A stretch of DNA of 64,000 nucleotides from contig CAJXSL010000016.1 of the NCBI GenBank assembly GCA_913060875.1, positions 1-64,000 on the forward strand, read 5' to 3'. The position numbers were made by a program, and so were the translations under genes. The stretch comes from an uncultured Desulfobacteraceae bacterium (GTDB lineage: Bacteria > Desulfobacterota > Desulfobacteria > Desulfobacterales > UBA5852). Below are positions 1,452 to 41,018 of the stretch, piece by piece. The stretch's first letter is position 1. The number at the start of each line of letters is the position of its first letter. The notes under the pieces are model-generated. The model saw only the letters and a program-made list of their open reading frames with translations. It searched no databases and had not been told where the DNA came from.

Positions 1452-1508
1452 CATGGCATCTTCTCCATAGCCAAGTTCCAAACACACAAAAAAGGAGAAG
1501 ATGCCATG
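1452..1508 (+). promoter_or_regulatory. 15-bp inverted repeat masking the RBS and start codon
   Basis: CATGGCATCTTCTCC at 1452-1466 is the perfect reverse complement of GGAGAAGATGCCATG at 1494-1508, with a 27-nt loop. The 3' arm contains both the Shine-Dalgarno GGAG (1494-1497) and the ATG (1506-1508) of the element's ORF. In a read-through transcript the start would be locked in a stem, as seen for transposase genes protected from external transcription. The biological role is inferred. Confidence 0.65.
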
Positions 1509-3050
1509 CTGGAATTCATGAAACTTTACAACAAAAAGGTCACAGGTGCAATCAGCGGATGGGATCGCATTCGTTTTCGCGGAACAATTCGCTGGTTGTC
1601 GAGTACGCGGGGTATCAACACCTACCTGCATACTTACCGGATCTTGCTCAAGGACTTTGGCCAATGGGCCAACAGCATCACCAAAAAAGTGCGCGACATG
1701 TGTGCAAATCAAGCAAAAGAGCTTGATATTCCAATGATCTATCTGCGCTCTGCTGCCATCAACAAAGAAGACTATGCCCGGCGCGTCATGCAAGAAAGAG
1801 GCATCGACACAGGCGATATTTGTATGTTCAGTACCGTTGAACCCTGCCTGGCCCCCAGCCTCAAGGGCAACAAAGCCAGCCGTCGGTTGGAATTGGAAAT
1901 GGGGCCAAGAAAGTGCATCTGGATCTACCACTATTGGAATGACGAGAATTTAGGGTTCGGCCATACCCGGCTTCAGACATGGTTGCCGTTGGCCGCGACC
2001 GTTTGCATCAACGGCCGTCACTGGTTGGAACGTCAGCTCATACGAGAAAAAATGGGTTATGTGAAGGATGGTAACTGTTTTACCCATATTGACGACTTTC
2101 CCAAAGCCGGCGAATTGATGGAACAACACCTTCGGGCCAATTGGTCCGAGTTGCTCGCGGCGTTGCTCGAACGCAACTGCCCCGGAATCGCAACCGTTTT
2201 GCACTCTCCTTTAGATTATTACTGGTCAGCCGATGAAACCGAATGGGCGACCGATATTGTTTTCCGTTCCAGGGCCGAACTGGATGAACTTTTCCCTAAA
2301 TTGGCCCGCTACGGTTTGCTCAGTGCTCAAAGTCCAGCGGTCATGCGGTTTTTAGGCCGCTCCAGCAAAGGGCGCCGCCCGGAGCAAATCGTAAGCGACC
2401 TGCGCAGCCGCTACGAAGGGCTTCGGCTCAAGCACTGGGTCAACCGCAACTCCATCAAAATGTACAACAAAGCCGGCTGTGTGCTGCGTGTTGAGACCAC
2501 GATCAATCAGACACGTGACTTCAAGGTCTTTCGACATCCGGATGACGACACCCGCCGCCCGGCCAGTTGGCAAAAGATGCGCAAGGGAATCAGCGACATG
2601 TATCGGCGCTCCGTCGTTTGCCAATCTTCCAACGAGCGCTATCTCGACCATTTGGCGGCATCGAGTTTCTCCGAGAGCTTGAAGACGACCGTGGCGGACA
2701 TATGCCGGCGCAAGCATCAACAGGGCAAGTCATACCGCGCGATAAACCCTTGGGAGCGAGAGGACTACCAGAGCCTTGAGTTTCTCTCGCGCGGGCAGTA
2801 TCAGATCAACGGCTTTCGCAACAAAGACTTGAAAGCCGTATTGTATCCGGCCATCAAAGAGGCCAGGCACCGCAAGCGGATCAGCAGCAAAATATCCCGT
2901 AGGCTTCGTCTGCTCAGAGCACACGGTATTATCCGCAAAGTCGGCTCCACGCACCGTTATCAATTGACCCTCAAAGGCAGACGTGTGGTTAACGCAGTCT
3001 TGGCGGCATCGGCTGCGGATACCGAGCAACTTATGGAAATGGCAGCATAA
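1506..3050 (+). CDS. Putative transposase-like protein of an IS-like element, function unknown
   Basis: The product has 514 residues and I cannot place it in a named transposase family. It is basic, begins MLEFMKLYNKKVTGAISGWD, and has a central region with many Trp and Tyr residues (KCIWIYHYWNDENLGFGH at roughly 140-160). The last 80 residues (KRISSKISRRLRLLRAHGIIRKVGSTHRYQLTLKG in outline) look like a winged helix-turn-helix ending in a short Ala-rich tail. I see no clear DDE or HUH motif. A 9-bp target duplication and an empty-site relative frame the gene, which argues that this protein mobilises the element. The ATG is set by GGAG at 1494 and is buried in an inverted repeat. A reverse-strand winged-helix regulator or a structural protein is ruled out by the long open frame here. 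Confidence 0.6.
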   Translation: MLEFMKLYNKKVTGAISGWDRIRFRGTIRWLSSTRGINTYLHTYRILLKDFGQWANSITKKVRDMCANQAKELDIPMIYLRSAAINKEDYARRVMQERGIDTGDICMFSTVEPCLAPSLKGNKASRRLELEMGPRKCIWIYHYWNDENLGFGHTRLQTWLPLAATVCINGRHWLERQLIREKMGYVKDGNCFTHIDDFPKAGELMEQHLRANWSELLAALLERNCPGIATVLHSPLDYYWSADETEWATDIVFRSRAELDELFPKLARYGLLSAQSPAVMRFLGRSSKGRRPEQIVSDLRSRYEGLRLKHWVNRNSIKMYNKAGCVLRVETTINQTRDFKVFRHPDDDTRRPASWQKMRKGISDMYRRSVVCQSSNERYLDHLAASSFSESLKTTVADICRRKHQQGKSYRAINPWEREDYQSLEFLSRGQYQINGFRNKDLKAVLYPAIKEARHRKRISSKISRRLRLLRAHGIIRKVGSTHRYQLTLKGRRVVNAVLAASAADTEQLMEMAA

Positions 3051-6616: not shown

Positions 6617-6813
6617 GGGCGTTTCCTTATGCTGGTTTGGTTCGGGGGGCCGCGGTCGATGCGTTGGGCCGAAGATCTTCCCGGGGTGTCGAAGGCGGTC
6701 GGCGGGGGCGGATGGGACGGTCGCGGCCCCGCCGGCGTCTTGATCCCACCGGCTCACACCTACCAGAGAATCTTCCGCCCGGGCAAGGGAAAAGGGCCTA
6801 CCGGCGCTAAGGC

Positions 6814-6842
6814 TTGACAAATCGGTCCCCCTCGGCTATTGG
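6814..6842 (+). promoter_or_regulatory. Sigma-70-type promoter of the iorAB-TRAP operon
   Basis: A perfect -35 TTGACA (6814-6819) is followed after 17 bp by TATTGG (6837-6842) as a possible -10. A start near 6849 would give a leader of about 160 nt up to the terminator at 7008, the usual size for an attenuator leader. The -10 matches the consensus only moderately. Confidence 0.55.
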
Positions 6843-6871
6843 CAGGTGGACGAAAGGGAATCCATACGACG

Positions 6872-6913
6872 ATGAAAACAATTCATGCCAATTGGTGGTG
6901 GCGGGCGGATTGA
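6872..6913 (+). CDS. Tryptophan-rich leader peptide of an attenuator
   Basis: This 13-codon ORF reads MKTIHANWWWRAD and stops at TGA (6911-6913). Three consecutive TGG codons lie at 6893-6901. An AAAGGGA at 6853-6859 is the likely ribosome-binding site, with somewhat long spacing. The ORF sits between a promoter and an intrinsic terminator, upstream of iorAB, whose 2-oxo-acid substrate is the transamination partner of tryptophan. The Trp codons lie in hairpin strand 1 and the stop codon lies in hairpin strand 2. This is the arrangement in which ribosome stalling versus completion selects between antiterminator and terminator. The reading is from sequence and geometry; expression is not shown. 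Confidence 0.85.
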   Translation: MKTIHANWWWRAD

Positions 6914-6972
6914 AGCAGCTCACCACCAAGCCACGCAAAAAATAAATGCATCAGGGCTGTGAGCGGCTTCAA
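6892..6972 (+). promoter_or_regulatory. Attenuator: mutually exclusive 1:2 and 2:3 (antiterminator) hairpins
   Basis: Strand 1 TTGGTGGTG (6892-6900, the Trp codons) pairs perfectly with CACCACCAA (6921-6929). The antiterminator pairs TTGAAGCAGCTCAC (6910-6923) with GTGAGCGGCTTCAA (6959-6972), 13 of 14 positions, the one mismatch being A6917/G6965. The second structure uses the same bases as the 5' arm of the terminator that follows. A ribosome stalled on the Trp codons leaves 6910-6923 free, so the antiterminator forms. A ribosome reaching the stop codon covers it. Confidence 0.85.
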
Positions 6973-7008
6973 CATCAAACGTTGGAGAAGTTCATGGCCC
7001 TTTTTTTT
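6953..7008 (+). terminator. Attenuator terminator ahead of iorA
   Basis: Bases 6953-6973 pair with 6981-7001 in a long stem. It has a 7-bp upper helix (CTTCAAC with GTTGGAG, one G-U), a 2x2 GG/AA internal loop and a 13-bp lower helix with wobbles, closed by a 7-nt loop. Eight T residues follow at 7001-7008. Its 5' arm is the strand captured by the antiterminator. Confidence 0.85.
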
Positions 7009-7098
7009 GGGCGCGCAGGCGTTGGATCCCAGGCCGGCGGTATCACGAACCGGTAACGGCGAACTTTAAAGCGAAACGGAACGAGGAAAGAGCGGACG

Positions 7099-8904
7099 AT
7101 GCGACGATTGATGTTGGGCAATGAGGCCATTGCGCGGGGATTGCTGGAAAACGGGTGTGCCATGGCAACCTCTTATCCCGGCACACCCGCCTCGGAGATT
7201 CTGGCGTCGGTGGCGGCCATGCGTACGGCGGAAGACGTTGACATGCATGTCCAGTGGGCGGTGAACGAAAAGGTGGCCCTGGAAATCGCCTATGCCGGGG
7301 CCATGACCGGCCTGCGCACCGCGGTCAGCATGAAACAGGTGGGGCTCAACGTGGCCTCGGATCCCCTGATGAGTGCCGCCTACATGGGCACCAAGGGCGG
7401 CTTCGTGGTCATCAGCGCCGATGACCCCGGCCCCCATTCCTCCCAGACCGAGCAGGACAGCCGCATGATGGCCATGATGGCCAAGATTCCGGTCCTGGAC
7501 CCGGATTCGCCCCAGCAGGCCAAGGAGATGATCGGCCTGGCCTTTGCGCTTTCGGAGGCGTTTGAAATTCCGGTCATGGTGCGGCCCACCACCCGGGTCT
7601 GCCACGCCCGGCAGGATGTCGCCGTGGCCCCCCTGGCCGACGACCCGCGGCAGCCCGAATTCGAGCGGGATCCGGCCCGCTGGGCGGCGACCCCCAAATT
7701 TCGCTATCATCTGCACGGTGAACTGGAGGGCAAACTGGACGCCATTGCCGCCTACGCGGCCACCGCGCCGGTCCAGTTGAATGCCGGTGTTTCCGGCGAC
7801 CGGGCCGTGGTGGTTTCGGGCGTGGCAGCCGCCCATACCGTGGAAATCATGCGGGAGCTCGGCTTGTGGGACCGCCTGCCCCTTTACCAGGTCCGCCAGC
7901 CATACCCCCTGCACACCGACTTTGTCACCCGTCTGGAGAAGGCGCACGATGCCGTGCTGGTGATCGAGGAAACCACCGGCATGATCGAGATGCAGTTGGG
8001 CGACCGCAAGCGGGTGACCGGTAAACAGACCGGGGCGGTTCCCCGGGTGGGTGAACTGACGCCGGAGACCATCGAGCGCATCCTCTGCGATTTCAGCGGG
8101 CAATCCTGTTCGGTGAAAACACCCCCGGCCGTGGCCGGACGCCGGCCCACCCTGTGTGCCGGATGCCCCCACCGGGCCAGTTTTTTTGCCATCAAGAAGG
8201 CGGCCCCCCGGGCCATCTACACCAGCGACATCGGCTGCTACACCCTGGGAATGAACCTGGGGGCGGTGGATACGGTGCTGTGCATGGGGGCGGCCATCAG
8301 CCAGGCCGCCGGTTTCTACCACGCGTTCAAGGGGCAGGAAAAACCCCGGGACGTGGTGGCCACCATCGGGGATTCCACTTTTTTCCACGCGGGGCTTCCG
8401 GCGCTGGTGGATGCGGTGTCCCAGGGGGTGCGGTTCGTTCTCGTTATCCTGGACAACCGCACCACCGCCATGACCGGCAATCAGCCCACCCCGGCCTCCG
8501 GGCGGGGCGCCTGCGGCGAGCCCCTGCAGAACGTCGATATCGAGAAGCTGGTGGCGGGCTGCGGTGTCGGCTTTATCCGCGAGGCCGATCCCTACCAGAC
8601 GGATGCCTGCATCCAGGTCCTCAAGGAGGCCCTGGCCTACAGCCGGGAGAACGGGCCGGCCGTGGTCATTTCGCGCGCCCCCTGCCTGCTGGACAAGCAG
8701 GCCGCCCGGAGTAAATCAATGGGCGCGCCCCCGGTGGTGACCGATGACTGTGACGGCTGCGGGTACTGTGTCCAGCATTTTGAATGTCCGGCCATCGTGA
8801 TGGCCGAGGACGAATCCCATGTGACCATCGATCCCGTGCTTTGCAGCGGATGCGGCGTTTGCCTCTATGTCTGCCCCAAACAATCCATCCAGCCCGCCGA
8901 ATAG
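7099..8904 (+). CDS. iorA: Indolepyruvate:ferredoxin oxidoreductase, alpha subunit
   Basis: The product is the large subunit of the thiamine-diphosphate enzyme that interconverts aryl pyruvates plus CoA and oxidised ferredoxin with arylacetyl-CoA, CO2 and reduced ferredoxin. Its 601 residues match the family. The N-terminal SYPGTPASEI starts the pyrimidine-binding domain. The TPP-binding segment GDSTFFH followed by LVILDNRTTAMTGNQ lies near 430-465. The C-terminal domain has CDGCGYCVQHFEC and CSGCGVCLYVC, two ferredoxin-type cluster motifs; the first is slightly irregular. GAGGAAAG precedes the ATG. The gene is controlled by a Trp-codon attenuator, which points to use under tryptophan shortage and hence a biosynthetic (reductive) role. 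That direction is inference; the family also works in amino-acid breakdown. Confidence 0.93.
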   Translation: MRRLMLGNEAIARGLLENGCAMATSYPGTPASEILASVAAMRTAEDVDMHVQWAVNEKVALEIAYAGAMTGLRTAVSMKQVGLNVASDPLMSAAYMGTKGGFVVISADDPGPHSSQTEQDSRMMAMMAKIPVLDPDSPQQAKEMIGLAFALSEAFEIPVMVRPTTRVCHARQDVAVAPLADDPRQPEFERDPARWAATPKFRYHLHGELEGKLDAIAAYAATAPVQLNAGVSGDRAVVVSGVAAAHTVEIMRELGLWDRLPLYQVRQPYPLHTDFVTRLEKAHDAVLVIEETTGMIEMQLGDRKRVTGKQTGAVPRVGELTPETIERILCDFSGQSCSVKTPPAVAGRRPTLCAGCPHRASFFAIKKAAPRAIYTSDIGCYTLGMNLGAVDTVLCMGAAISQAAGFYHAFKGQEKPRDVVATIGDSTFFHAGLPALVDAVSQGVRFVLVILDNRTTAMTGNQPTPASGRGACGEPLQNVDIEKLVAGCGVGFIREADPYQTDACIQVLKEALAYSRENGPAVVISRAPCLLDKQAARSKSMGAPPVVTDDCDGCGYCVQHFECPAIVMAEDESHVTIDPVLCSGCGVCLYVCPKQSIQPAE

Positions 8905-8940: not shown

Positions 8941-9489
8941 ATGAATGATAGCGTTCACCAGCAGATTGTGATCAGCGGCGTCGGCGGCCAGGGCGTTCTC
9001 TTCGTCACCCGCCTCATGGCGGAAGCGGCCATCCGCAAGGGGCTGCCGGTGCTGACGTCGGAAACCCACGGCATGGCCCAGCGGGGCGGCACCGTGATTT
9101 CCCACCTGAAAGTCGGCGATTTTGCCAGCCCGCTGATCCGCAGCGGCCATGCCGATCTCCTGATGGCCATGAAGGCCGAAGGGGCGGCCCAGCATGGCCA
9201 CTACCTGCACGAGGACGGCTGGGCCGTCGTCAACGGGGGGGCTGGCGATGCCGCGGCCAAGGATTGGCATCGACTGGATGCCGACCGACGGGCCCATGCC
9301 ATCGGCAACCCGCGCGCCGTCAACCTGGTGGTGCTGGGGGGCGCACTGGCGGCCCAGGGGCCCACACCCCTGTTTTGCACGGTGGAAGATATTCGCGCGG
9401 TCCTGGCAGACCGATTGGCGGCCAAGTCCGCTATGCTTGAGATGTCCTACAAGGCCCTGGAAGCGGGACTGCACATCACTGATTCCTGA
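8941..9489 (+). CDS. iorB: Indolepyruvate:ferredoxin oxidoreductase, beta subunit
   Basis: This is the small (gamma-domain) subunit of IorAB, 182 residues, the normal length. It shows the characteristic ISGVGGQGVLFVTRLMAEAA opening and the ETHGMAQRGGTVISHLKVG segment of 2-oxoacid:ferredoxin oxidoreductase gamma domains. It starts 36 bases after iorA, preceded by AAAGGAAG, and is certainly co-transcribed with it. The complex is cytoplasmic. The TRAP transporter genes follow in the same direction after about 100 bases with no obvious terminator, so transport and this enzyme are probably one unit. Confidence 0.93.
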   Translation: MNDSVHQQIVISGVGGQGVLFVTRLMAEAAIRKGLPVLTSETHGMAQRGGTVISHLKVGDFASPLIRSGHADLLMAMKAEGAAQHGHYLHEDGWAVVNGGAGDAAAKDWHRLDADRRAHAIGNPRAVNLVVLGGALAAQGPTPLFCTVEDIRAVLADRLAAKSAMLEMSYKALEAGLHITDS

Positions 9490-9593
9490 GCGCATTCAGC
9501 GTTTATATGGAAACGGCGTGCGGTGCGTCCCAAGACTAACGTAAGCCGCCGGTGAACCCACCGGCGCGCGGAAGCGGAGGAGGAGAGCCCGAC

Positions 9594-10613
9594 ATGAAAA
9601 GGAAAACCGATGTGCGGTTGACGTTGTGCCTGGTCGTCGCCCTGATGACCCTTTTGCTGGTGCCGGCCGGTGCGACGGCCGGGTCGATTACCCTCAGTTA
9701 TGCCAATTTCCCGCCGGCCCCGACCTTTCCCTGTGTACAGATGGAGCGCTGGAAAACCGAGGTGGAAAAGCGCACGGACGGCAAGGTCGCCATCAAGACC
9801 TATCCGGGCGGCACCCTGCTGGGCGCCAAGGAGATGATGGACGGTGTGATCGCCGGCCAGGCCGATATCGGCAACCTCTGCATGGCCTATCAGCCGGGAC
9901 GTTTCATCGTCACCAACGCCACCAGTCTTCCCCTGGGTATCCCGAGTGCGAAGACCGGGAGCCTGGCGCTCTGGGACCTCTACCAAAAATACCAGCCCAA
10001 GGCCTTCAGCCAGGTCAAGGTGCTGACCATGTTCACCACGGCCCCGGCCAACATCATGTCCAAAAAGGCGGTGCGCAGCCTGGACGACATCCGGGGCCTG
10101 GACCTGCGGGCCTCCGGCGGCGCGGCTCAGATCCTCAAGGCCTGGGGCGCCAACCAGGTGGGCATGCCCATGTCGGCGACACCCGAAGCGCTGCAGAAAG
10201 GTGTCGTCCAGGGGCTGTTTTCTTCCCTGGAGGTCATGAAAGATCTTAAATTCGCGGAAAGCTGCGGGTACGTCACCATGACCGACACGGTGATCTATCC
10301 CTTTGCCGTGGTCATGAACATGGATCGCTGGAAAGCCCTGCCCCCGGACGTCCGGAAGGTGATGGAAGACATGGGCACCGAGCAGGCCGAGTGGACCGGC
10401 AACTATATGGACCAGCACGTCAAGGCGTCCATGGACTGGTCGGTCAAGGAACACAAGGTGGAGGTGATCGATCTGGATGCCGAAACCAAAGCCGTCTGGG
10501 ATCAGAAACTGCAGTTCATTACCGACAAATGGGTGGCGGATGCCAAGGCCAAGGGGTTTCCGGCCGAGGCAATCGTGACCGATATCCAGAAGCTGACCGA
10601 GCAGCATCGCTGA
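9594..10613 (+). CDS. dctP: TRAP transporter substrate-binding protein (DctP family)
   Basis: This periplasmic solute receptor of a tripartite ATP-independent transporter delivers an organic acid to the QM membrane complex. The start MKRKTDVRLTL is chosen because GGAGGAGGAG lies just upstream and a signal peptide of about 28 residues (ending near PAGATAG) follows at once. The mature protein shows the family segments GGTLLGAKEMMDGVIAGQADIG and DDIRGLDLRASGG, where the Arg normally clamps the ligand carboxylate. QGLFSS and DTVIYPFAVVMN follow. About 339 residues, normal length. The ligand cannot be read from sequence. Because it lies in the operon led by the Trp attenuator and iorAB, aryl acids such as indoleacetate are a reasonable guess. 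A C4-dicarboxylate or other carboxylate is the alternative. Confidence 0.9.
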   Translation: MKRKTDVRLTLCLVVALMTLLLVPAGATAGSITLSYANFPPAPTFPCVQMERWKTEVEKRTDGKVAIKTYPGGTLLGAKEMMDGVIAGQADIGNLCMAYQPGRFIVTNATSLPLGIPSAKTGSLALWDLYQKYQPKAFSQVKVLTMFTTAPANIMSKKAVRSLDDIRGLDLRASGGAAQILKAWGANQVGMPMSATPEALQKGVVQGLFSSLEVMKDLKFAESCGYVTMTDTVIYPFAVVMNMDRWKALPPDVRKVMEDMGTEQAEWTGNYMDQHVKASMDWSVKEHKVEVIDLDAETKAVWDQKLQFITDKWVADAKAKGFPAEAIVTDIQKLTEQHR

Positions 10614-10685: not shown

Positions 10686-11177
10686 ATGACCGCGTTGGAT
10701 CGCGTGATGCGGTTCCTGAACCGTATACTGGTATTCTGCGGGGGCGTGTTCCTGGTGGGCATGGTCGTGCTGACCTGCGCCAATATCGCCACCCGTACGG
10801 TGTGGGAACCGATTCGGGGAACTTTTGAACTCATGGGCTATTTCGGCGCCGTGGTGACGGCCTGCGCCCTGGCCTACACCCAGTTGAATCGCGGGCATAT
10901 CGCCGTCAACGTGCTGATCCACCGGTTTTCCAAGAAAACCCAGCAGCGGCTGAATGGCTTCAACAATGCCGTGTGCACGGTTTTCTTCGCCCTGGTGACC
11001 TGGCAGATCGTGCTGAAGGCCCACGGTTTTATGCAGACGGGTGAAGTCTCGGAAACGCTGCGGGTCATTTTCTACCCCTTCACCTATGGGGTGGCCGCCG
11101 GCTGCGGGGTGCTGGCCCTGGTCTTCCTGGTGGATTTGCTCCAGGCGTTGATTCCCGGCAAAGGAGCGTCCCAATGA
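10686..11177 (+). CDS. dctQ: TRAP transporter small permease (DctQ family)
   Basis: This 163-residue inner-membrane protein has four hydrophobic segments (about 12-32, 50-68, 90-108 and 133-155), the DctQ pattern. Family-like sequence includes ANIATRTVWEPIRGTFELMGYFGAVVTACALAYTQLNRGHI in outline. It pairs with the large permease, which starts inside this gene's stop (ATGA overlap at 11174-11177), so the two are translationally coupled. GGGGGAG lies upstream of the ATG. It uses the ion gradient together with DctM and the receptor DctP. Confidence 0.9.
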   Translation: MTALDRVMRFLNRILVFCGGVFLVGMVVLTCANIATRTVWEPIRGTFELMGYFGAVVTACALAYTQLNRGHIAVNVLIHRFSKKTQQRLNGFNNAVCTVFFALVTWQIVLKAHGFMQTGEVSETLRVIFYPFTYGVAAGCGVLALVFLVDLLQALIPGKGASQ

Positions 11178-12478
11178 GCGCGGCGATGGTGGGCCTGTTG
11201 GGTATCGTGATCCTCCTGGGGGTGTTGTTCTTCCTGGGCATGCCGGTGGGCATTGCCATGGCCCTGGTGGGATTTGTCGGCTTCTGCGTGCTGGTGTCTT
11301 TCAAGGCGGCGCTTTACATGCTGAGCTCCGTCATCTGGGACACTTTTTCCAAATACGGTCTGACGGTCATTCCCCTGTTCATTTTCATGGGGCAGGTGGC
11401 CTTTTATTCCGGGGTCAACGAGAAGCTCTACAATGCGGCTTACAAATGGGTGGGGCACATCCGGGGCGGCATCGCCATGGCCACGGTGATGGCCTGCTCC
11501 GCCTTTTCGGCGATTTGCGGTTCCAATGCCGCCACCGCGGCCACCATGACCACGGTGGCCCTGCCGCAGATGCGCAAATACGATTATCATCCCAAACTGA
11601 GCACCGGCGCCATTGCCTGCGGCTCCACCCTGGGCGTGGTCATCCCCCCCAGCGTGGTATTGATCGTCATCGGGCTGTCCACCGAGCAGTCCATCGCCCG
11701 TCTGTTTTACGGCGGTGTGGGAGCCGGGATCCTGCTGACCCTGACCCTGATGATGACGGTGGTCATGGTGTGCCGGCGTCACCCGGACTGGGGGCCCGTG
11801 GGGCCGCCCACCTCCTGGGAAGACCGCTGGCGTTCCCTCTCCGGCGCCCTGGAGATGCTGGTGCTCTTCCTGCTGGTGATGCTGGGATTGTTCTTCGGCG
11901 TGTTTACGCCCACCGAGGCCGGCGCGGCCGGAAGCTTCTTCGCCCTCCTGATTGCCGGTGTGCAGCGCCGCCTGACCTGGAAGGGGTTCCTGGCGTCGGT
12001 GACGGACACCCTCAAAATTTCCTGCATGGTCATCGTGATCGTGACCGGGGCCATGATCTTCGGCCGCTTCCTGGCGGTCACCCGGATTCCCTTCGATATC
12101 GCCGCCTGGGTGGTCGGGTTGCCGATTCCCAAAGTGTGCGTCATGGGGATCATCTGCCTGATCTATATCATCGGGGGTGCGGTGATGGATGCCCTGGCCC
12201 TGCTGCTGATCACCATCCCGATCTTTTTCCCGGTGGCGGCCGAACTGGGCTACGATCCCATCTGGTTCGGCGTGACCATTACCGTGGTGACCACCCTGGG
12301 GGCCGTGACCCCGCCCGTGGGGGCCACGACCTATGTCGTGGGCGGCATGGCCGGCGATATTCCCCTGGAGGATGTGTTCCGGGGGGTGACCTATTTTTTA
12401 CCGGCCTATATCCTTTGCATCCTGATCCTGATGCTGGTCCCGGAAATCGTCACCTTTTTACCGGATCTTCTCCGGTAG
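11174..12478 (+). CDS. dctM: TRAP transporter large permease (DctM family)
   Basis: This 434-residue channel subunit has about 12 membrane segments. Typical DctM signatures are visible: FFLGMPVGIAMALVG near the start, TVIPLFIFMGQVAFYSG, the GSNAATAATMTTVALPQM loop, ISTGAIACGSTLGVVIPPSVVLIV in outline, VFTPTEAGAAGSF, and late in the protein LGAVTPPVGATTYVVGGMAG. It performs sodium- or proton-coupled uptake with DctQ and DctP. It is the last gene of the operon. Long inverted repeats follow it at 12625-12916. Confidence 0.93.
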   Translation: MSAAMVGLLGIVILLGVLFFLGMPVGIAMALVGFVGFCVLVSFKAALYMLSSVIWDTFSKYGLTVIPLFIFMGQVAFYSGVNEKLYNAAYKWVGHIRGGIAMATVMACSAFSAICGSNAATAATMTTVALPQMRKYDYHPKLSTGAIACGSTLGVVIPPSVVLIVIGLSTEQSIARLFYGGVGAGILLTLTLMMTVVMVCRRHPDWGPVGPPTSWEDRWRSLSGALEMLVLFLLVMLGLFFGVFTPTEAGAAGSFFALLIAGVQRRLTWKGFLASVTDTLKISCMVIVIVTGAMIFGRFLAVTRIPFDIAAWVVGLPIPKVCVMGIICLIYIIGGAVMDALALLLITIPIFFPVAAELGYDPIWFGVTITVVTTLGAVTPPVGATTYVVGGMAGDIPLEDVFRGVTYFLPAYILCILILMLVPEIVTFLPDLLR

Positions 12479-40842: not shown

Positions 40843-40927
40843 GGTGGGGTTCCCGAGTGGTCAAAGGGAGCAGACTGTAAATCTGCCGGCAAAGCCTTCG
40901 GAGGTTCAAATCCTCCCCCCACCACCA
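40843..40927 (+). tRNA. tRNA-Tyr (GTA)
   Basis: This type II tRNA of 85 nt includes the encoded CCA (40925-40927). The acceptor GGTGGGG pairs with CCCCACC. The anticodon loop CTGTAAA gives anticodon GTA at 40877-40879. A long variable arm (CGGCAAAGCCTTCG region) and the T-arm GGAGGTTCAAATCCTCC follow. It reads Tyr codons. Confidence 0.97.
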
Positions 40928-40940
40928 CAATTGCCATTGC

Positions 40941-41018
40941 GTCCCCATCGTCTAGCCCGGTCCAGGACACCGGCCTTTCACGCCGGCGACAGGGGTTCGA
41001 ATCCCCTTGGGGACGCCA
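40941..41018 (+). tRNA. tRNA-Glu (TTC)
   Basis: This 78-nt tRNA includes the encoded CCA. The acceptor GTCCCCA pairs with TGGGGAC. The anticodon stem CCGGC/GCCGG encloses loop CTTTCAC with anticodon TTC at 40977-40979. The T-arm is AGGGGTTCGAATCCCCT. It lies 13 bases after tRNA-Tyr and shares its transcript. Confidence 0.97.

Follow-up and report, generated by a model that had tools for sequence, protein, structure and literature searches.

Does the run of tryptophan codons in front of an indolepyruvate:ferredoxin oxidoreductase operon belong to a working attenuator, and, if so, what does it say about an enzyme whose direction in bacteria is often unclear? We pursued this question in a 64,000-nucleotide stretch of DNA from an uncultured Desulfobacteraceae bacterium (hereafter the window), for which a sequence-only reading had proposed a leader with classical trp/his logic. 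All of the elements that it named were confirmed at their positions. The proposed logic was likewise supported, by the anatomy of the leader, masked folding, Trp-codon leaders before iorA in relatives, covariation, and a further Trp leader that precedes the trp operon in the same genome, and a trp-type attenuator upstream of iorA is thus a well-supported prediction from sequence. The TRAP transporter genes downstream of iorB and the counterpart on the trp operon go beyond that earlier reading. As a whole, the best explanation, which we hold to be likely, is a trp-type ribosome-mediated attenuator acting on iorA-iorB-dctP-dctQ-dctM, a putative tryptophan-salvage operon.

The genes in question lie on the + strand. 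Specifically, iorA (7099-8904), encoding the alpha subunit, scored 654.3 bits against TIGR03336, above the curated cut-off of 650.9, and the adjacent iorB (8941-9489), encoding the beta subunit and matching Pfam POR, scored 219.5 bits against PRK06274.1-2, just below its cut-off of 227; together they are predicted to form an IorAB acting on indolepyruvate or indoleacetyl-CoA, for which no PDB sequence match was found at E values up to 1e-10. A tripartite TRAP transporter follows, comprising the solute-binding protein gene dctP (9552-10613; identified by profile matches, with the ATG at 9594 the likelier start), the small permease gene dctQ (10686-11177; Pfam DctQ), and the large permease gene dctM (11174-12478; TIGR00786, 323 bits). 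We infer that the five genes are transcribed as one unit. Upstream, an nnrD-like fusion gene (YjeF_N and Carb_kinase domains) is encoded on the opposite strand, divergent from iorA. Elsewhere in the window we noted a 514-amino-acid ORF (1506-3050, + strand) and two tRNA genes side by side (40843-41015, + strand). The same genome contains a second iorA, with a neighboring ORF that resembles iorB by eye, and no Trp leader was found in the 420 nt upstream of this second copy.

The leader region begins with a probable promoter (6814-6842, + strand), in which TTGACA (6814-6819), a 17-nt spacer, and TATTGG (6837-6842) were read as claimed; the −10 hexamer is weak, agreeing with the consensus at three of six positions, and relatives (e.g., L003, L014, and L004) likewise have TTGACA ahead of a CTCGG-TAT block. 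The likely ribosome-binding site, AAGGGA (6854-6859), is weak and rather distant from the leader's ATG (6872-6874). From there, a 13-codon peptide, MKTIHANWWWRAD, and its stop are encoded at 6872-6913 on the + strand, with three successive Trp codons (6893-6901) that constitute strand 1; Trp-run leaders recur in relatives. The Trp-codon strand is complementary to an arm at 6921-6929 (TTGGTGGTG opposite CACCACCAA), a 1:2 pairing borne out by both the sequence and masked folding. Strand 2 (6910-6923), the left side of the antiterminator, overlaps the stop codon (TGA, 6911-6913), which had been placed within 6910-6913, and forms 13 of 14 possible Watson-Crick pairs with strand 3 (6959-6972), the duplex having an energy of −23.4 kcal/mol that none of 300 shuffles equaled. 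Strand 3 is common to the antiterminator and to the putative intrinsic terminator (6953-7008), which sits between the leader peptide and the first structural gene, iorA, and consists of the long hairpin that had been described (6953-7001, strands 3 and 4; −28.5 kcal/mol) followed by T8 (7001-7008). A generic promoter and terminator scan reported zero promoter-like and zero terminator-like sites at the leader region, and the terminator claim therefore rests on the hairpin obtained from folding.

The RNA spanning 6849-7010 folded at −57.1 kcal/mol (z = −4.1 against dinucleotide shuffles, none of 200 being equally low). We then considered ribosome positions by masked folding, in which the ribosome footprint was taken out of the transcript before folding. 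With a ribosome stalled at any of the three Trp codons and strand 4 not yet transcribed, the probability of 2:3 pairing was 0.89-0.91, compared with 0.80 at the same stage without a ribosome, and a ribosome that had reached the stop codon covered strand 2, the terminator then forming with a probability of 0.86. Without a ribosome, and with the transcript running through the terminator, 1:2 pairing had a probability of 0.79. At full equilibrium the terminator prevailed in every ribosome state, and the switch must therefore be kinetic; classical trp attenuators decide kinetically. The masked folds, the overlap with the stop codon, and the covariation described below all predict a mutually exclusive antiterminator, with the ribosome's position deciding. 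When tryptophan is plentiful, charged tRNA-Trp would be sufficient for the ribosome to reach the stop codon and cover strand 2, upon which strands 3 and 4 would pair and transcription would stop in T8 near 7008. When it is scarce, the ribosome would halt at the three Trp codons, strand 2 would take strand 3 before strand 4 exists, and RNA polymerase would continue into the iorA operon. The switch thus probably keeps the iorAB-transporter genes off while tryptophan is plentiful, and starvation for tryptophan would be expected to raise expression of the operon in the cell.

Relatives' loci were collected by IorA searches, from the same order and beyond. Short ORFs with two consecutive Trp codons were found upstream of iorA in 22 of 97 regions on the coding strand versus two on the opposite strand, and ORFs with three in 15 versus none, while 20 shuffled sets of the 97 regions had a mean of 2.05 Trp pairs (maximum 5) and no Trp triples. 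The next strongest triples were those of valine (6 versus 0, coding versus opposite strand) and glycine (10 versus 4). These 97 regions were drawn from 104, leaving out duplicates (L056, L070, and L072), one region mistaken for a duplicate (L054, in which no Trp run was seen), and three with less than 50 nt upstream (L067, L094, and L099); a scan of 48 further upstream regions exposed additional Trp leaders. Across relatives the Trp run is constant and the remaining peptide variable, as illustrated by MKPTCWWWWWQRP, MKHIFWWWWYKP, MGPRRWYWWWRTV, MSFNLWCWWWQKF, and MKAFNRLSTGWWWWQKISGGGLFGA. Among 40 leader loci (L169, L172, and L174, from the genomes of L058, L066, and L064, being counted once, and L069, an extract without a start codon or T-run, being left out), a hairpin followed by a T-run was detected by script in 34.

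The leader is not universal. Of 291 genomes sampled from the order, 74 had a close IorA, of which 72 had upstream sequence (all but G184 and G203); 28 of the 72 carried the leader in a tally made by hand, and 44 did not, with G065 and G026 having only 246 and 326 nt upstream. In five of the 44 leaderless regions (G027, G034, G075, G167, and G183) there was an ORF with a Trp pair that we did not take for a leader, and three of the 28 leaders (G009, G077, and G117) had no T-run terminator detected by script. A genome of the same genus, G004, lacked the leader yet had the TTGACA motif and the TRAP genes, iorA was without a leader in the Desulfobacter group, and in some leaderless relatives iorAB was located behind serA. 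In an IorA tree of 94 rows, in which G184 and G203 were entered as leaderless and distant outer-branch rows had been picked for bearing leaders, the leader was clustered (none of 500 shuffles as low) but required 15 gains or losses. The sequence-only reading had held that the attenuator would be refuted by relatives whose iorAB operon is the same but has no Trp-rich leader or terminator; G004 and the Desulfobacter group represent such cases in part, and we read them as losses, the leader being, on these comparisons, presumably an old feature that was repeatedly lost. Separately, in L021 and L063 the region upstream of iorA, read by eye, has a TTGACA motif and, a short distance behind it, a terminator-like hairpin and T-run, but no leader peptide that we could recognize, possibly a different mode of attenuation.

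The pairing was itself conserved. We anchored strand 2 at the stop region and strand 3 at a 13-nt block, GTGAGNNGCTTCA, in 25 loci (12 pairs), since some rows of the MAFFT alignment had part of strand 2 one base out of place; in L060, L152, and L184 strand 2 was shifted by hand. A standard pair was present in 277 of 300 cells, and 15 of the 23 unpaired cells fell at one position. Two-sided changes occurred at six of the 12 antiterminator pairs, and 6 of 2000 permutations of strand 3 reached the observed value; among the changes, C-G replaces U-A in six loci, some of which are related, and A-U replaces G-C in L058 and L173. Both the recurrence of Trp-codon leaders and the compensatory changes that an alignment of relatives had been expected to expose were thus seen. 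Moreover, strand 2 began at the stop codon in 22 of the 25 loci, the other three being those shifted by hand. Across the 40 loci, cognate 2:3 duplexes had a mean energy of −20.6 kcal/mol versus −17.8 when the partner was dissimilar and non-cognate and −15.6 when it was shuffled (strand windows were set individually for eight group-2 loci, L159, and L165). Taken one by one, only 17 of the 40 loci had a duplex better than shuffles at p < 0.05. Leaders of the Syntrophales type (L086, L095, and L112) had the same arrangement built from different sequences.

We also examined the trp operon of the same genome (C20, locus L134), in which trpE was identified by search and trpG, D, C, and F by eye from ORFs. 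It is preceded by a leader with four Trp codons in a row, ending in LELKQWWWWHLT, and by two tandem terminators. Like the ior leader of the window, it has a Trp run and a terminator before the first gene; its peptide is different, and it has two terminators in tandem as opposed to one. Among 30 genomes queried, 26 (this genome and relatives) had a trpE match, and ORFs with a Trp run, some of them weak, were located upstream of trpE in 24 of the 26 regions, the matches in G009 and G077 having GTG starts. In the genomes examined, trp therefore appears, by these leader patterns, to be regulated as a rule by Trp attenuation, a form of control that iorAB appears to share. Two patterns tried for finding leaders genome-wide were discarded as too common: TGGTGG-gap-CACCAC (56 and 44 places versus 43 and 46 in controls) and TGGTGGTGG (204 and 174 versus 126 and 117). 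Because of this, further Trp attenuators in the same genome are possible beside the ior and trpE leaders.

Tandem terminators were also present among the ior leaders of relatives. In 15 leaders, the script identified two hairpin-T-run terminators in tandem (L006, L058, L064, L147, and L173 are among the loci with a second terminator), and in seven more (L013, L019, L022, L060, L152, L159, and L165) the T-run was found on the downstream hairpin only, the first hairpin being recognized by eye. In all 22, several of which are close relatives, the left arm of the second terminator (arm 5) pairs with upstream sequence in which the right arm of the first (arm 4) is contained, with a mean 4:5 energy of −18.6 kcal/mol versus −14.2 for dissimilar non-cognate and −10.9 for shuffled arms; p was below 0.05 against shuffles in 16 of the 22 and not in the other six. 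Before the last arm was transcribed, the mean probability that arm 5 was paired upstream was 0.80 with a stalled ribosome, 0.49 after completion of the peptide, and 0.62 without a ribosome, and the stalled value exceeded the completed one in 22 of 22 loci, by a mere 0.01-0.02 in L006, L058, and L165. At equilibrium, terminator 2 mostly still formed when the ribosome was stalled (probability ≤0.25 in only four of the 22). The trpE leader of the window's genome had the same 4:5 pairing (p = 0.007), and two terminators were present in 11 of 24 trp leaders, two of these 11 being no better than shuffles; the ior leader of the window is of the one-terminator form, no second terminator having been found downstream. 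In such a relay, formation of 2:3 would free arm 4 to pair with arm 5 and so prevent the second terminator (5:6), one stalled ribosome would disarm two serial terminators, and a first hairpin lacking a U-run, as in several ior leaders, would merely transmit the signal. We put forward only tentatively, at somewhat below even chances, that the Trp attenuators of this order on ior and trp include a two-stage relay, and that the two operons together make up a tryptophan regulon extending to the salvage of auxin-like indole acids. The 4:5 complementarity could also be a by-product of terminator 2 copying terminator 1.

What the operon does was approached through gene context and the transporter. 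In relatives bearing the leader, the gene order is iorA-iorB-(paaK)-dctP-dctQ-dctM, and TRAP genes were present in 19 of 25 leader operons versus 12 of 33 leaderless ones examined (Fisher p = 0.0036, kinship ignored); gene order of the main set was obtained by tblastn, with 15 of 74 genomes having too little downstream sequence. By sequence, the solved structures closest to DctP were 4n6d (Desal_3247), 4pgn/4pgp, and 4nap, and by fold its model (pLDDT 86.8) was nearest to 4n6d (Z 42.3; 56% identity over the aligned fold) and to 4nap (Dde_0634; 48% identity over the aligned fold). We take 4pgn and 4pgp also to be Dde_0634, and the three entries 4nap, 4pgn, and 4pgp to be complexes with D-Trp, indolepyruvate, and indole-3-acetate, 4nap being that with D-Trp, such that the solved Desulfovibrio proteins nearest to DctP presumably bind indole acids. 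Passages of PMC5812351 list "indole acids" among TRAP ligands. The iorAB, TRAP, and paaK context fits indole-acid salvage, and the attenuator suggests that the operon genes help to make or salvage tryptophan. Under this scheme, the TRAP transporter would import indole acids (indole-3-acetate or indolepyruvate), a PaaK-type ligase would activate the indole acid, IorAB would run in the carboxylating direction, from indoleacetyl-CoA to indolepyruvate, and the latter would be transaminated to tryptophan. Reductive use of arylacetates is known in some anaerobes and methanogens, and we infer the salvage direction, that is, indole-acid import and reductive carboxylation to indolepyruvate, from the context above.

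Other neighbors of iorAB were observed in individual loci. In a more distant IorA group, a TrpB-like gene precedes some iorAB pairs (L117 by NCBIfam; L111, L119, L124, L129, and L132 by sequence cluster), in most cases together with a small gene of about 100 amino acids that is ACT-like by eye, and in L114, L122, L130, and L133 a hisC-like aminotransferase gene lies before iorA (L122 by NCBIfam, the others by sequence cluster). The latter is, from its position and family, a candidate partner for indolepyruvate transamination. Gene order in these trpB- and hisC-like loci came from a longest-ORF caller, which at GC-rich loci takes antisense ORFs to be genes.

Several other explanations of the leader were weighed. 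That it is a chance ORF followed by the ordinary terminator of an upstream gene could draw on how common TGGTGGTGG alone is in the genome (378 places, both strands), and we consider it exceedingly improbable: the upstream nnrD-like gene is divergent, meaning that a + strand terminator can act only on transcription entering iorA, Trp triples were absent from minus strands and shuffles, and the antiterminator covaries. A different device, such as a T-box, riboswitch, or protein-binding leader in which the Trp codons are incidental, perhaps an RNA of a kind not yet described, would be compatible with Rfam naming no family at the leader at gathering score. It is nevertheless very unlikely, although slightly less so than chance, considering that no T-box reached gathering score, whether in the window or among 19 related loci, and none was detected at E values up to 10 in 6800-7100, that the Trp-codon runs recur while other residues of the peptide vary, and that nearly all of the anchored loci have strand 2 beginning at the stop codon.

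More weight is due to the idea that the attenuator is real, but that the operon takes up Trp-like compounds (for example, D-Trp or indolepyruvate) or has some other use, IorAB then working oxidatively and low tryptophan merely signaling a need to scavenge. Indolepyruvate oxidoreductase is known above all for its catabolic role in amino-acid fermentation, the presumed D-Trp complex of 4nap would suit such uptake, and no CoA-ligase gene was found among the five genes of the window's ior operon; a PaaK relative is present elsewhere in the genome (C10), with 57% identity to the PaaK of L064. Against this, oxidizing indolepyruvate during tryptophan scarcity would be expected to waste precursor, and 20 of the 28 genomes with a leader have paaK inside the operon, as expected for arylacetate activation. 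Additionally, iorAB-paaK is listed under tryptophan in the table of biosynthetic operons of a Geobacter genome paper (PMC2700814, in its Table 2). We therefore regard an oxidative operon as unlikely, if clearly more plausible than the two preceding alternatives, and favor the tryptophan-salvage operon under a trp-type attenuator.

Attenuation by tryptophan is classical, and the trp attenuator of Escherichia coli and its relatives (trpL) has tandem Trp codons, 1:2, 2:3, and 3:4 hairpins, and a U-run terminator. The leader of the window resembles trpL in its short tandem-Trp peptide, its alternative 1:2/2:3/3:4 hairpins, and a U-run terminator before the first structural gene, and differs from it in preceding iorAB and a TRAP transporter rather than trpEDCBA and in that strand 2 begins at the stop codon. 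The sequence-only reading knew of no such attenuator described for an indolepyruvate:ferredoxin oxidoreductase operon, and we found no report of attenuation on ior in the open-licence literature. However, a conserved 5′ sequence before iorAB-paaK had already been filed under "tryptophan" for Geobacter metallireducens and G. sulfurreducens (PMC2700814, Table 2, 2009); the genes are the same, and section 9 of that paper describes no leader peptide or attenuation for it. Scans of three Geobacteraceae loci (L071, L076, and L079) gave no convincing leader. We consider the novelty to be moderate: the class of attenuator is known, and its new, conserved member precedes an operon on which it was not expected; relatives may, in addition, carry a new variant.

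For the biology of these bacteria, a Trp attenuator offers independent, built-in evidence that the operon genes are wanted when tryptophan is scarce, and one operon is added to those under ribosome-mediated Trp control. The attenuator argues for a role in reductive synthesis or in salvage, and it supplies a candidate for what the TRAP transporter carries. A vague annotation would thereby become a testable pathway, from indole-3-acetate to tryptophan, in sulfate reducers.
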